Part shown: positions 3,316-25,033 of the stretch, one piece after another | Numbering within the stretch: position 1 is the stretch's first letter | How the letters are laid out: each line of letters opens with the position of its first letter | Source: Clostridiaceae bacterium | Lineage (GTDB): Bacteria; Bacillota; Clostridia; DSM-8532 | NCBI GenBank assembly: GCA_012523685.1 | Contig: JAAYTR010000258.1 | Location: 1 to 33,943 of the forward strand | Reading direction: 5' to 3' | Length of the DNA stretch: 33,943 nt | Made by a program: the position numbers and the translations under genes | The notes under the pieces: generated by a model | Database searches by the model: none | What the model saw: the letters and a program-made list of their open reading frames with translations, nothing else | What the model was told of the DNA's origin: nothing

Positions 3316-4920
3316 ATGAGTAACAATGTTGAAAGAATCAAAAATGTAATCAAAAGCGGAAAAACAGCAATAGGAATCGAACTGGGATCTACCAGAATAA
3401 AAACTGTCTTAATCGGCGAGGATAATTATCCTGTTGCATCAGGCAGCTATGACTGGGAAAACAGTTATATCAACAACATTTGGACTTATAGCATCGAGGA
3501 AATATGGGAAGGGTTACAAGGAAGTTACAGAGATTTAGCCCAAAATGTAAAAGAAAAGTATGATATGGTTATTGAGTCGGTTGGTTCTATCGGTATAAGT
3601 GCCATGATGCACGGTTATATGGTATTCGACAAAAATGATAACCTTCTGACACCGTTCCGTACATGGAGAAATAATATTACTGGAGCAGCATCTGAGAAGC
3701 TGACATCTTTGTTTAATTACCCAATTCCACAAAGATGGAGCATTGCTCATCTTTATCAGGCTATCCTTAATAATGAGGAGCATGTTCCTCAAATATCCTT
3801 TATGACTACCCTGGCCGGATATATTCATTGGAAATTGACCGGTGAGAAGGTTTTAGGTGTTGGTGAGGCATCCGGTATGTTCCCCATTGACCTGAAAACC
3901 AAAAAGTTTGACAAGAATATGATAGACATGTTTAGCCGGGAGATTAGTCAGAAAAACTATCCATGGAAGCTTGAAGATATTCTTCCGGGTATTCTGCTTG
4001 CAGGACAACAAGCCGGAGCTCTGACACCTGAAGGAGCTAAACTTCTGGATACATCAGGCAATCTGAAAGCCGGAATTCCTTTCTGTCCGCCCGAAGGAGA
4101 TGCGGGAACCGGTATGGTGGCTACAAACAGTATTGCCGTCAGAACAGGAAACGTTTCAGCCGGAACATCGGTTTTTGCAATGATTGTTCTGGAAAAGGAA
4201 TTATCAAAAGCGTATTCTGAAATAGATCTTGTAACAACTCCCGATGGTAACCTGGTTGCTATGGTTCATTCGAACAATTGTACCTCTGATTACGATGCAT
4301 GGATTTCTATATTTGCAGAAGCTTTCAAGGCTGTGGGTATGGAAATCACGAAGCCGAAGCTGTATGATACTTTGTTGGGAATGGCCTTAAAGGGAGATCC
4401 GGATTGTGGAGGTCTGTTGTCATACGGATATATTTCCGGAGAACATATAACCAACTTCAAGGAAGGGCGTCCATTGTTTGTCCGCTCCTCCAACTCAAAC
4501 TTCAATTTAGCCAACTTTATGCGCGTACATTTGTTCACAGCGCTGGGGGCATTGAGAACAGGTCTTAATATTCTATTTGAAAAAGAAAATGTTAAAGTCG
4601 ATGTTATTTGCGGTCATGGCGGCTTTTTCAAAACAAGAGATGTGGGTTTAAAGATTATGTCTGCAGCAACAACAGTGCCGGTCTCCGTTTTGGAGACAGC
4701 CGGTGAAGGCGGTGCCTGGGGAATAGCTTTACTTGCTTCATATATGGCCAACAAGGCGGAGGGAGAATCTCTGGCAGATTTCCTGAATAAGATTTTTGAA
4801 GGGAAATCAGGGGCTGTTGTCAATCCCGATCCCTCTGATGTAAAAGGATTTGACGAATTCATGAAGAGATATACACAGGGTCTGGAGATAGAAAAAGCGG
4901 CAGTTGAGAATTTAAAATAA
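3316..4920 (+). CDS. FGGY-family carbohydrate kinase
   Basis: A 534-residue sugar kinase of the FGGY family (xylulokinase, ribulokinase, glycerol kinase relatives), which phosphorylates a sugar or polyol with ATP in the cytoplasm. The phosphate-1 motif [16 protein letters not shown] opens the N-terminal domain. [10 protein letters not shown] carries the likely catalytic Asp, and [11 protein letters not shown] with [15 protein letters not shown] forms the C-terminal nucleotide site. The ATG at 3316 is preceded by a weak AAGGAATTGGGG. No sugar transporter or isomerase lies beside it, so the substrate is unknown. It is a single-gene unit with its own promoter and a large hairpin downstream. Confidence 0.88.
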
Positions 4921-4974
4921 AATTATATCATTGGTGTAACTTAATATAAGAGATTATAGAATTTTATAGTAGTC

Positions 4975-5048
4975 AACACCCCCTTTGTTTCATAATTTAT
5001 CATTGTGGTAGATAAAATGATAATAATAAAAATAGGGGGTGTTTTTTT
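4975..5048 (+). promoter_or_regulatory. Two-part hairpin containing the Lon-like gene's ribosome-binding site
   Basis: AACACCCCCT (4975-4984) is the exact reverse complement of AGGGGGTGTT (5034-5043), which is followed by T to 5048 and then the ATG at 5049. Inside the loop, TTATCATT (4997-5004) pairs with AATGATAA (5016-5023). The only Shine-Dalgarno-like sequence, GGGGG at 5035-5039, is in the 3' arm. The structure therefore looks like a terminator for the kinase gene and at the same time hides the next gene's ribosome-binding site. A weak promoter (TTGGTG 4931-4936, TATAGA 4955-4960) could start an mRNA just upstream. Confidence 0.7.
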
Positions 5049-7451
5049 ATGTCAATAACACCACTTGGAGCAAACCAGTTAAGAAGGAAATGTAATCCCT
5101 CAGTTTTTAGTTTTCAGGACACCTCTTTTCTGACTCCGTCCAGAGAGCTTATCGGGCAGCAAAGAGCGGCCGATGCTACAGATTTTGGGCTGAGCATCCA
5201 GTATGATGGATATAATTTGTATATGGCAGGTGAATCCGGAGTAGGCAAAACCCGTTATGCACTTGAAAGCGCGCAGCGTCAAGCCAGATTTATGCCTACT
5301 CCCGACGACTGGTGTTATGTATATAATTTTGAAGATTCAAACCGGCCGAAGGCAATAAATCTCCCTGCCGGTATGGGCAAGGAATTTAAAAAGGATATGG
5401 AGGATTTCGTAAAGGTTATAGAGCAGGAAATCTCCAAAGCTTTTGATGGTGAAGAGTACGAGGAAGAACGTTCCAGGATTATAAAAGTATTCCGTGACAA
5501 AAAAGATGAGCTGGTTTTAAAACTCAGCAATGAAGCCGCAGAACGCGGATTCAGGGTAAAGCTTGCCAATTCCGGTGTATATTTTATGCCGATTATTGAC
5601 GGTGAACCCTTAAGCGAGGATGATTTTAAAGCTTTAGATGAAGAAATAAAAATTGAGCTGTCAAAATCGTCAGAAGCCCTCCAAAGAGAAACTACCGATA
5701 CAATCAGAAAAATAAGAGAAGTAGAGATGGATGCAGAGAATGCTATACAGGAATGGGAGCATCAGATTGCACTTTATGCGGTAGGAATACATATTGACGA
5801 TCTTAAGGATAAATATAATGAGTATCCTTTTGTCACAGCTTATTTAGATGCGGTCAAAGAGGATATACTCAAGAACATAGAGCATCTTGCAGGGCCGCGT
5901 TACTCAGACGAACAACAAAGTATATTAACTCATCTGTTAATGATGAAAAAGGGAGGAGAAGATAATCCCTATGGTCGGTACAAGGTGAATCTTCTTGTTG
6001 ATAACAGCCGTCTACACGGAGCACCCGTAATAGTTGACTACAATCCTACTTTCTATAATCTGATGGGTCGCTGTGAATACGAGAATGAATTGGGGACAAT
6101 GATTACCGACTATACTTTAATAAAGCCTGGCCTTTTTCACCAGGCTAATGGCGGATTTCTGATTCTCCAAATTAATGATGTAATTTCCAATCCCCAGTCC
6201 TTTGAAGCTATTAAGCGGACCTTAAAGACAAGACAGATAATAATAGAGAATATAAAAGAGCAAATGGGTCTTGTGGCTGTATCAGCATTAAAGCCCGAAC
6301 CTATACCCATAAATGTAAAGATTATCTTTGTTGGAAGTGCTGAGATTTATCACCTTCTTTATAACTATGACAGGGATTTTAAGAAATACTTCAAAATCAA
6401 AGCAGACTTTGATGATCATATGGACTGGAACGATGAAAACGTACAGCGTCTTGCCCAATACATAGGTGCCTTTTGTAATAAAGAGGGTGTTAAGCATTTT
6501 GACAGATCAGGTGTTGCTGAGGTTGTCAACTACAGCTCATGGATTGTGCAGGATCAAAATAAGCTTACAACACGCTTTTCTGAAATAGTTAATATATTGG
6601 GTGAAGCCGGAACATGGGCTAACATCGAAGGTAGCCCCCTTGTTTCTGAACGCCATGTAAAAAAGGCTATCGCAGAAAAGAAGAAACGGTCGAACAAATA
6701 TGATGAGGAGCTTCTGGAACTTGTTCGTGAGGGTACTCTGCTAATTGATACCGACGGTTATGTGGTGGGACAGATTAACGGCCTTGCAGTTGTTGATCTG
6801 GGGGATTATACTTTTGGTAAACCCAGCCGTATTACTGCAGCCACTTATATGGGGAAAACCGGAATACTGGATATAGAGCGCGAAGTAGAGACCGGCGGGA
6901 CGACCCACTCCAAGGGTGTACTAATTCTAAGCGGTTACATAGGGCAGAAATATGCTCAGGAAATACCGCTGTCTCTGGCGGCAAGTATATGTTTTGAACA
7001 GCTCTACAGCGGAATAGAGGGGGACAGCGCATCAGCTACCGAATTATTCGCTATTCTCTCCAGCTTATCTGATTTGCCGGTATATCAGGGTATAGCTGTA
7101 ACAGGGTCAGTAAATCAGTTGGGGTTTATTCAACCAATCGGCGGTGCAACATTCAAGGTTGAAGGATTCTTTGAAATATGCAAAATAAACGGACTTACCG
7201 GAAAACAGGGTGTAATAATACCTCATCAAAATGTAAAAAATCTGGTATTGTCAGATGAGGTAGTGGAAGCTGTTGAAAAAGGACTTTTTCATATATATCC
7301 TATTAAGACAGTGGATGAAGGTATAGAGATACTAACCGGAGTTCCTGCCGGACAAAGGCTGCCCGACGGTACATACCCGGCTGGCACGATAAATGACAGA
7401 GTATATAAAAAGCTGCATTATTTTGCAGAGACCACAGCAAAGTATTTGTGA
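5049..7451 (+). CDS. Lon-like (LonB-type, S16 family) ATP-dependent protease
   Basis: An 800-residue AAA+ protease. Walker A is GESGVGKT (61-68), a charged helical region follows at about 110-240, and NGGFLILQ lies near 365-373. The C-terminal S16 peptidase domain holds a Ser/Lys dyad: S660 in EGDSAS and K703 in GGATFKVEG. Their spacing of 43 residues equals that of S679/K722 in E. coli Lon. It lacks the N-terminal substrate domain of LonA and resembles the LonB/COG1067 group, made of soluble or sporulation-related proteases in Firmicutes. No membrane segment was seen, so it is likely cytosolic. Expression is probably shaped by the hairpin over its ribosome-binding site. Confidence 0.9.
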   Translation: MSITPLGANQLRRKCNPSVFSFQDTSFLTPSRELIGQQRAADATDFGLSIQYDGYNLYMAGESGVGKTRYALESAQRQARFMPTPDDWCYVYNFEDSNRPKAINLPAGMGKEFKKDMEDFVKVIEQEISKAFDGEEYEEERSRIIKVFRDKKDELVLKLSNEAAERGFRVKLANSGVYFMPIIDGEPLSEDDFKALDEEIKIELSKSSEALQRETTDTIRKIREVEMDAENAIQEWEHQIALYAVGIHIDDLKDKYNEYPFVTAYLDAVKEDILKNIEHLAGPRYSDEQQSILTHLLMMKKGGEDNPYGRYKVNLLVDNSRLHGAPVIVDYNPTFYNLMGRCEYENELGTMITDYTLIKPGLFHQANGGFLILQINDVISNPQSFEAIKRTLKTRQIIIENIKEQMGLVAVSALKPEPIPINVKIIFVGSAEIYHLLYNYDRDFKKYFKIKADFDDHMDWNDENVQRLAQYIGAFCNKEGVKHFDRSGVAEVVNYSSWIVQDQNKLTTRFSEIVNILGEAGTWANIEGSPLVSERHVKKAIAEKKKRSNKYDEELLELVREGTLLIDTDGYVVGQINGLAVVDLGDYTFGKPSRITAATYMGKTGILDIEREVETGGTTHSKGVLILSGYIGQKYAQEIPLSLAASICFEQLYSGIEGDSASATELFAILSSLSDLPVYQGIAVTGSVNQLGFIQPIGGATFKVEGFFEICKINGLTGKQGVIIPHQNVKNLVLSDEVVEAVEKGLFHIYPIKTVDEGIEILTGVPAGQRLPDGTYPAGTINDRVYKKLHYFAETTAKYL

Positions 7452-24406: not shown

Positions 24407-25033
24407 ATGGCTAGATATACAGATGCATCTTGTAAACTCTGTCGTCGAGAAGGGCAAAAACTCTTCTTAAAAGGAGAAAGATGCTATACAAATAAATGCG
24501 CAATAGGCAGAAGGCCTTATGCGCCGGGACAACATGGCGCTCAGAGAAAGAAGCTATCGGAATATGGTATTCAGCTTCGTGAGAAGCAGAAAGCCAAGAG
24601 ATTCTATGGTCTTTTAGAGAGCCAGTTCAGAAAATATTTTGAAATCGCAAACCGTAAAAAGGGAGTTACAGGTGAGAACCTGTTGCAGTTACTGGAAAGC
24701 AGGCTTGATAATGTTGTTTACAGATTAGGATTTGGAACAACAAGGGCAGAAGCTCGTCAGCTTGTTACCCATGGCCATTTTCTGGTGAATGGAAAAAAAG
24801 TCAATATTCCATCTTATATCGTTAAGGTGGGTGACACCATAGACGTAAGTGAAAAGAGTAAAAAATCGGTTAGATTTAAGGAAATCCTTGATATAACAGG
24901 CGCAAAGGTAGTTCCTAAGTGGCTTGAAGTAGATCAGGAGAATCTTAAGGGTAAGATTGTCGCATTACCGGCCAGAGAGGATATTGACCTTAATGTTCAG
25001 GAACACCTCATTGTTGAGTTGTACTCCAAGTAA
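24407..25033 (+). CDS. rpsD: 30S ribosomal protein S4 (uS4), zinc form
   Basis: A 208-residue primary 16S-binding protein. Cysteines C9, C12, C26 and C31 make the zinc knuckle of the C+ variant. The S4 RNA-binding domain ([32 protein letters not shown]) follows at about 97-130. It is encoded inside the alpha operon, unlike in Bacillus subtilis where it is separate. AATGGAGG precedes the ATG. Confidence 0.97.

Follow-up and report, generated by a model that had tools for sequence, protein, structure and literature searches.

The Lon-type protease gene in the window (the 33,943-nt stretch of Clostridiaceae DNA analysed here) has its ribosome-binding site inside a hairpin, and the loop of this hairpin carries two invariant, promoter-like boxes. 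Sequence comparison and folding models make it likely that a promoter, probably of the sigma-B type, lies within the hairpin that sequesters the site; RNA reading through from upstream would then be silent, while RNA started in the loop would be translatable. The maintenance of the sequestering stem across the genus by compensatory change is well supported by the sequences of relatives.

The protease gene and its neighbourhood

The gene (5049-7451, forward strand) encodes an 800-aa AAA+ protease of family S16. Profile searches identified LonB-like AAA (PF13654), LonB AAA-LID, LonC helical and Lon_C protease domains (the other accessions being PF20436, PF20437 and PF05362); the match to the NCBIfam LonB equivalog TIGR00764 lies below its cut-off. 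LonC (MEROPS S16.007) has lost ATPase activity (PMC9569914), whereas this translation retains a complete Walker A motif, GESGVGKT; the protein is therefore classified only as LonB/LonC-like.

Upstream lies a gene for an FGGY-family carbohydrate kinase (3316-4920, forward strand), from which read-through RNA probably originates in this species. In most relatives the gene upstream of the protease is rimI, as read from the upstream sequence; here, and apparently in L003 and L004 too, the kinase gene separates rimI from the protease gene. These three species are three of the four with at least six T before the ATG.

Structure of the leader hairpin

The outer stem of the hairpin consists of 10 perfect base pairs between AACACCCCCT (4975-4984, forward strand) and AGGGGGTGTT (5034-5043, forward strand). 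It encloses an 8-bp inverted repeat formed by TTATCATT (4997-5004) and AATGATAA (5016-5023). Seven T residues (5042-5048, forward strand) directly abut the ATG at 5049, and the only Shine-Dalgarno (SD) sequence of the gene, GGGGGTG (5035-5041), lies entirely within the 3' arm. The first-pass annotation had described a 10-bp stem, a nested 8-bp stem, a T run touching the start codon and a sole SD in the 3' arm, and the sequence bears out this description. A search of the genome found the hairpin in a single copy, and a repeat or mobile element was rejected on these grounds.

The predicted RNA fold of positions 4965-5060 has a free energy of -23.8 kcal/mol (z = -3.34), and one of 200 shuffled sequences was as stable. 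Opening the SD in read-through RNA costs 14.6 kcal/mol in the folding model. This is the highest value among the 32 genes of the window that have an SD (median 4.7 kcal/mol); the second highest, 9.6 kcal/mol, belongs to the gene at 24407-25033.

A hairpin that hides the SD of a protease gene and is more stable than shuffled sequence could act as an RNA thermosensor, or as a leader controlled by a ligand or protein, on the long transcript. This is improbable: even at 55 °C opening is predicted to cost 12.4 kcal/mol, and at 65 °C 10.3 kcal/mol, an Rfam search of the window gave no family match, the nested stem is not conserved, and the conserved letters of the loop make up a pair of spaced boxes also seen at other genes. 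The thermosensor, which had been suggested from the sequence alone, was rejected as the stem is too stable by prediction; its opening cost drops only from 14.6 kcal/mol at 37 °C to 12.4 kcal/mol at 55 °C.

Conservation of the SD-hiding stem

The genus is represented by 14 genomes, including that of the window; 13 contain the protease gene and 12 have a readable leader. A stem that hides the SD is present in 11 of these 12 leaders, with varying sequence; the exception is L008. The outer stem is widely kept, whereas the nested stem (4997-5023, forward strand) is lineage-specific; it overlaps a variable spacer and is common only to the nearest relatives, L003 and L004.

The 5' region of each leader pairs better with its own SD region than with those of other leaders (mean -18.6 kcal/mol, against -14.9 kcal/mol when swapped; p about 0.001). 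This comparison is free of alignment, and p is 0.002 when only ten representatives are used. Further measures depend on registration of the arms by hand, which favours structure: 86% of cells pair, compared with 46-56% when the arms are slid, both sides have changed in five of nine stem pairs, and none of 500 shuffles reaches the covariation score of the stem. Pairing conservation in relatives had been named in the first-pass annotation as a check on its proposals. With the stem kept in nearly all leaders through compensatory changes, the translational gate that it put forward is well supported. The L008 leader has exact promoter-like boxes and lacks the SD-sequestering stem; it is a natural control that separates the two parts of the element.

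The arms themselves differ between species (AACACCCCC, AACAGCCGC, GGCATTTCC, AACAGACCC) but stay complementary to the SD; a fixed operator sequence is thus not preserved. The stem is consequently very unlikely to be an inverted-repeat DNA operator for a repressor, even though the inverted repeat is perfect and its position promoter-like, which would fit that role.

The T run is less widespread than the stem. A run of at least five T before the ATG is found in four of the 12 species and is absent in the other eight; runs of at least six are found in L002, L003, L004 and L013. These runs, and the U7 immediately next to the stem in this species, would fit an ordinary intrinsic terminator serving the upstream operon and overlapping the next RBS by chance. 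Another genus of the family likewise has a terminator-like hairpin, placed before the gene and clear of the RBS (CGGGCTGTCC/GGACAGCCCGTTTT in L128). However, seven of the eight species that lack the T run retain the stem, the loop is about 49 nt long, and a terminator leaves the invariant boxes unexplained; as a full account of the element it is unlikely. Since the run is missing in eight of 12 species, termination is not the conserved function. The earlier suggestion of a terminator thus holds as a possibility for this species, where the T run may serve as a terminator tail. Termination restricted to this species and its near relatives is plausible.

Two invariant boxes in the loop

The loop contains two boxes, GTTTCATA-N10-GTGGTAGATA, which are exact in eight species; all 18 box positions are invariant. 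Outside the boxes, invariant positions in the same eight species number three of ten in the spacer, one of 14 on the 5' side and three of 18 on the 3' side. Fixed boxes between drifting flanks and around a drifting spacer are the pattern of -35 and -10 promoter boxes, not of a helix. The upstream box (4987-4994, forward strand; eight of eight columns invariant) is -35-like and overlaps the TGTTT at 4986-4990 that corresponds to the sigma-B consensus. The downstream box (5005-5014, forward strand; ten of ten columns) includes the -10-like TGGTAG at 5006-5011. In L011, L013 and L014 the boxes are either missing or eroded, and in L012 their position may have shifted. The boxes are very likely to be a promoter of some kind. 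They were overlooked in the first-pass annotation and change the expected mode of action of the element.

Candidate sigma factors

The consensus published for C. difficile sigma-B is WGWTT-N13-17-(G/T)GGTWA (PMC7494833). In the window, TGTTT-N15-TGGTAG agrees with it at ten of 11 positions, with one mismatch. In single leaders the consensus is not significant, as 7-25% of shuffled sequences score equally.

The genus encodes three factors of the SigB/F/G type, one of which adjoins rsbV-like, rsbW-like and ClpC genes. In L099 (positions 961-2950), an operon beside the ClpC gene comprises a sigB-like gene, a STAS (RsbV-like) gene, an RsbW-like gene and a gene for a second RsbW-like ATPase. Its sigB-like protein scores above the cut-off for the SigBFG subfamily; matches to the SigB and RsbW equivalogs are below theirs. 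A search of the region preceding the sigB operon, before the rsbV-like gene, gave no consensus site of the sigma-B type, and sigma-B autoregulation was rejected.

The internal promoter is rather likely to be read by a sigma-B-like factor. The literature consulted holds no direct account of a sigma-B regulon that includes a Lon-type protease. There is a smaller, though appreciable, chance that a different sigma factor (sigma-A with an extended -10, sigma-F or sigma-G, or another) reads the promoter in the same architecture, in which case the protease would respond to a different signal. TTCATA-N18-TAAAAT is also sigma-A-like, with a score of 9/12; in C. difficile, sigma-B promoters are at times difficult to tell from those with an extended -10 (PMC7438776); sigF and sigG are available in the genus; and the divergent L013 and L014 have no sigma-B boxes. 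Against this, the invariant boxes occupy the sigma-B positions, and the other genes that bear them have functions in redox, signalling and motility, not in the forespore. Sigma-F was tried as a candidate and rejected: the region upstream of spoIIR, which is a sigma-F target in B. subtilis, carries a different conserved motif, ...GAGAATAATT.

Occurrence of the boxes at other genes

A relaxed pattern, GTTTNA-N12-GNGGTANATA, has 19 exact matches in the 14 genomes, compared with three for the reversed pattern. When one mismatch is allowed, counts are not clearly above the reversed-pattern control. Eight of the 19 exact sites are at the protease gene and the remaining 11 all fall outside open reading frames. 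These 11 sites point at genes for rubredoxin (four species: L104, L031, L054 and L111), HD-domain proteins of the HD-GYP type (three: L108, L112 and L035), integrase/Xer-type recombinases (two), flagellin and a STAS protein; each gene family was checked on one representative. The flagellin example is weak, since its site may overlap a sigma-D promoter. The rubredoxin and HD-GYP-type genes, identified through their boxes, are candidates for a stress regulon of the genus.

Proposed start-site-dependent translation

We infer the promoter function of the boxes, the identity of the sigma factor, the start site and the silencing of read-through RNA from these observations, and together they lead to the following model. 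Polymerase running on past the upstream gene, which is rimI in most species and the FGGY kinase gene here, would produce RNA with both arms of the stem. The arms would fold together and hide the SD, and the protease would remain untranslated from this RNA; here, some of the read-through RNA may in addition end at the U7 tail. When the alternative sigma factor is active, most likely the sigma-B-like one, transcription would start downstream of the 5' arm at about 5018-5022 (forward strand), a region placed 7-11 nt past the -10-like box. The resulting leader of about 27-31 nt would lack the 5' arm, and the hairpin could not form; this RNA would therefore be translated.

Folding models of the two RNAs agree with this proposal in several species. 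The cost of opening the SD falls from 14.6 kcal/mol in read-through RNA to 5.5 kcal/mol in internally started RNA in the window, from 18.1 to 2.4 kcal/mol in L003, from 12.3 to 4.6 kcal/mol in L004, from 11.9 to 3.4 kcal/mol in L006 and from 6.6 to 2.9 kcal/mol in L007. In L012 it falls from 21.4 to 2.7 kcal/mol; the site in this species is possibly shifted and is less certain. The modelled difference is small in L005 and L009, and the cost rises in L008. Where loss of the 5' arm lowers the cost, read-through RNA should be silent and RNA started internally should be translatable.

The neighbouring genus and wider relatives

In five genomes of this other genus of the family (L126-L130), the RBS of the protease gene lies outside any such stem. 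A terminator-like hairpin is found upstream of the gene instead and is clearest in L128. A conserved TGTTTTGGA...TGAGGTAAAC follows or overlaps this hairpin; it resembles the sigma-B form and is possibly a sigma-B-type promoter. This arrangement suggests that insulation against upstream transcription may be a theme common to both genera. Inspection of the wider relatives L065-L070, L131 and L149 revealed no obvious equivalent.

Comparison with known systems

In RNA of phage T4 gene e initiated upstream, a helix hides the SD and this structure cuts lysozyme synthesis 100-fold; the DNA that encodes the 5' strand of this helix contains a late promoter, whose RNA is missing the strand and is translated (PMC3014915). 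The element described here resembles gene e (and also soc, 49 and I-TevI) in that hiding of the SD would depend on the start site, as proposed here from sequence and folding. It differs in that the T4 cases are phage genes with phage late promoters, whereas here the gene is a chromosomal protease gene and a probable stress-type promoter lies in the loop.

In B. subtilis, a large hairpin before sigG (spoIIIG) was proposed to block translation of read-through RNA from spoIIG, and it is unable to form in RNA from the gene's own alternative-sigma promoter (PMC5942855). The same division is predicted here, with read-through RNA blocked by the hairpin and own-promoter RNA free of it. In contrast to sigG, which is a sigma-factor gene with a forespore sigma-F/G promoter, the present case has sigma-B-type boxes, a Lon-type protease and genus-wide compensatory change.

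In Listeria monocytogenes, prfA RNA from the P2 promoter is also without part of a hairpin. The prfA leader is a true thermosensor, unlike the protease stem, whose predicted stability is too high for such a role. The C. difficile sigma-B regulon shares the form of its consensus with the boxes described here and includes redox and stress genes (PMC7494833); the text consulted describes no hairpin architecture, and the host genus is distinct.

The literature consulted contains nothing direct on read-through hairpins with internal alternative-sigma promoters. Start-site-dependent translation as such is known from T4 and from B. subtilis sigG; the present element is best read as a genus-wide bacterial case of it, with visible compensatory change and, as sequence and modelling suggest, an alternative-sigma-type promoter in the loop.

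Implications

On balance, we lean towards an account in which a general-stress sigma factor drives a Lon-type protease from a promoter within the gene's own RBS-blocking hairpin, kept throughout the genus by compensatory change. A single 75-bp element would thereby insulate the gene translationally, so that only its own start is productive. In this genus of spore-forming anaerobes, the protease should then be produced solely in response to its own signal.

The genus-wide occurrence suggests a reusable device that shields genes from read-through and needs no terminator. Such elements could be found by seeking promoter boxes within SD-sequestering stems. In addition, the boxes predict membership of a stress regulon in uncultured Clostridia of anaerobic digesters.
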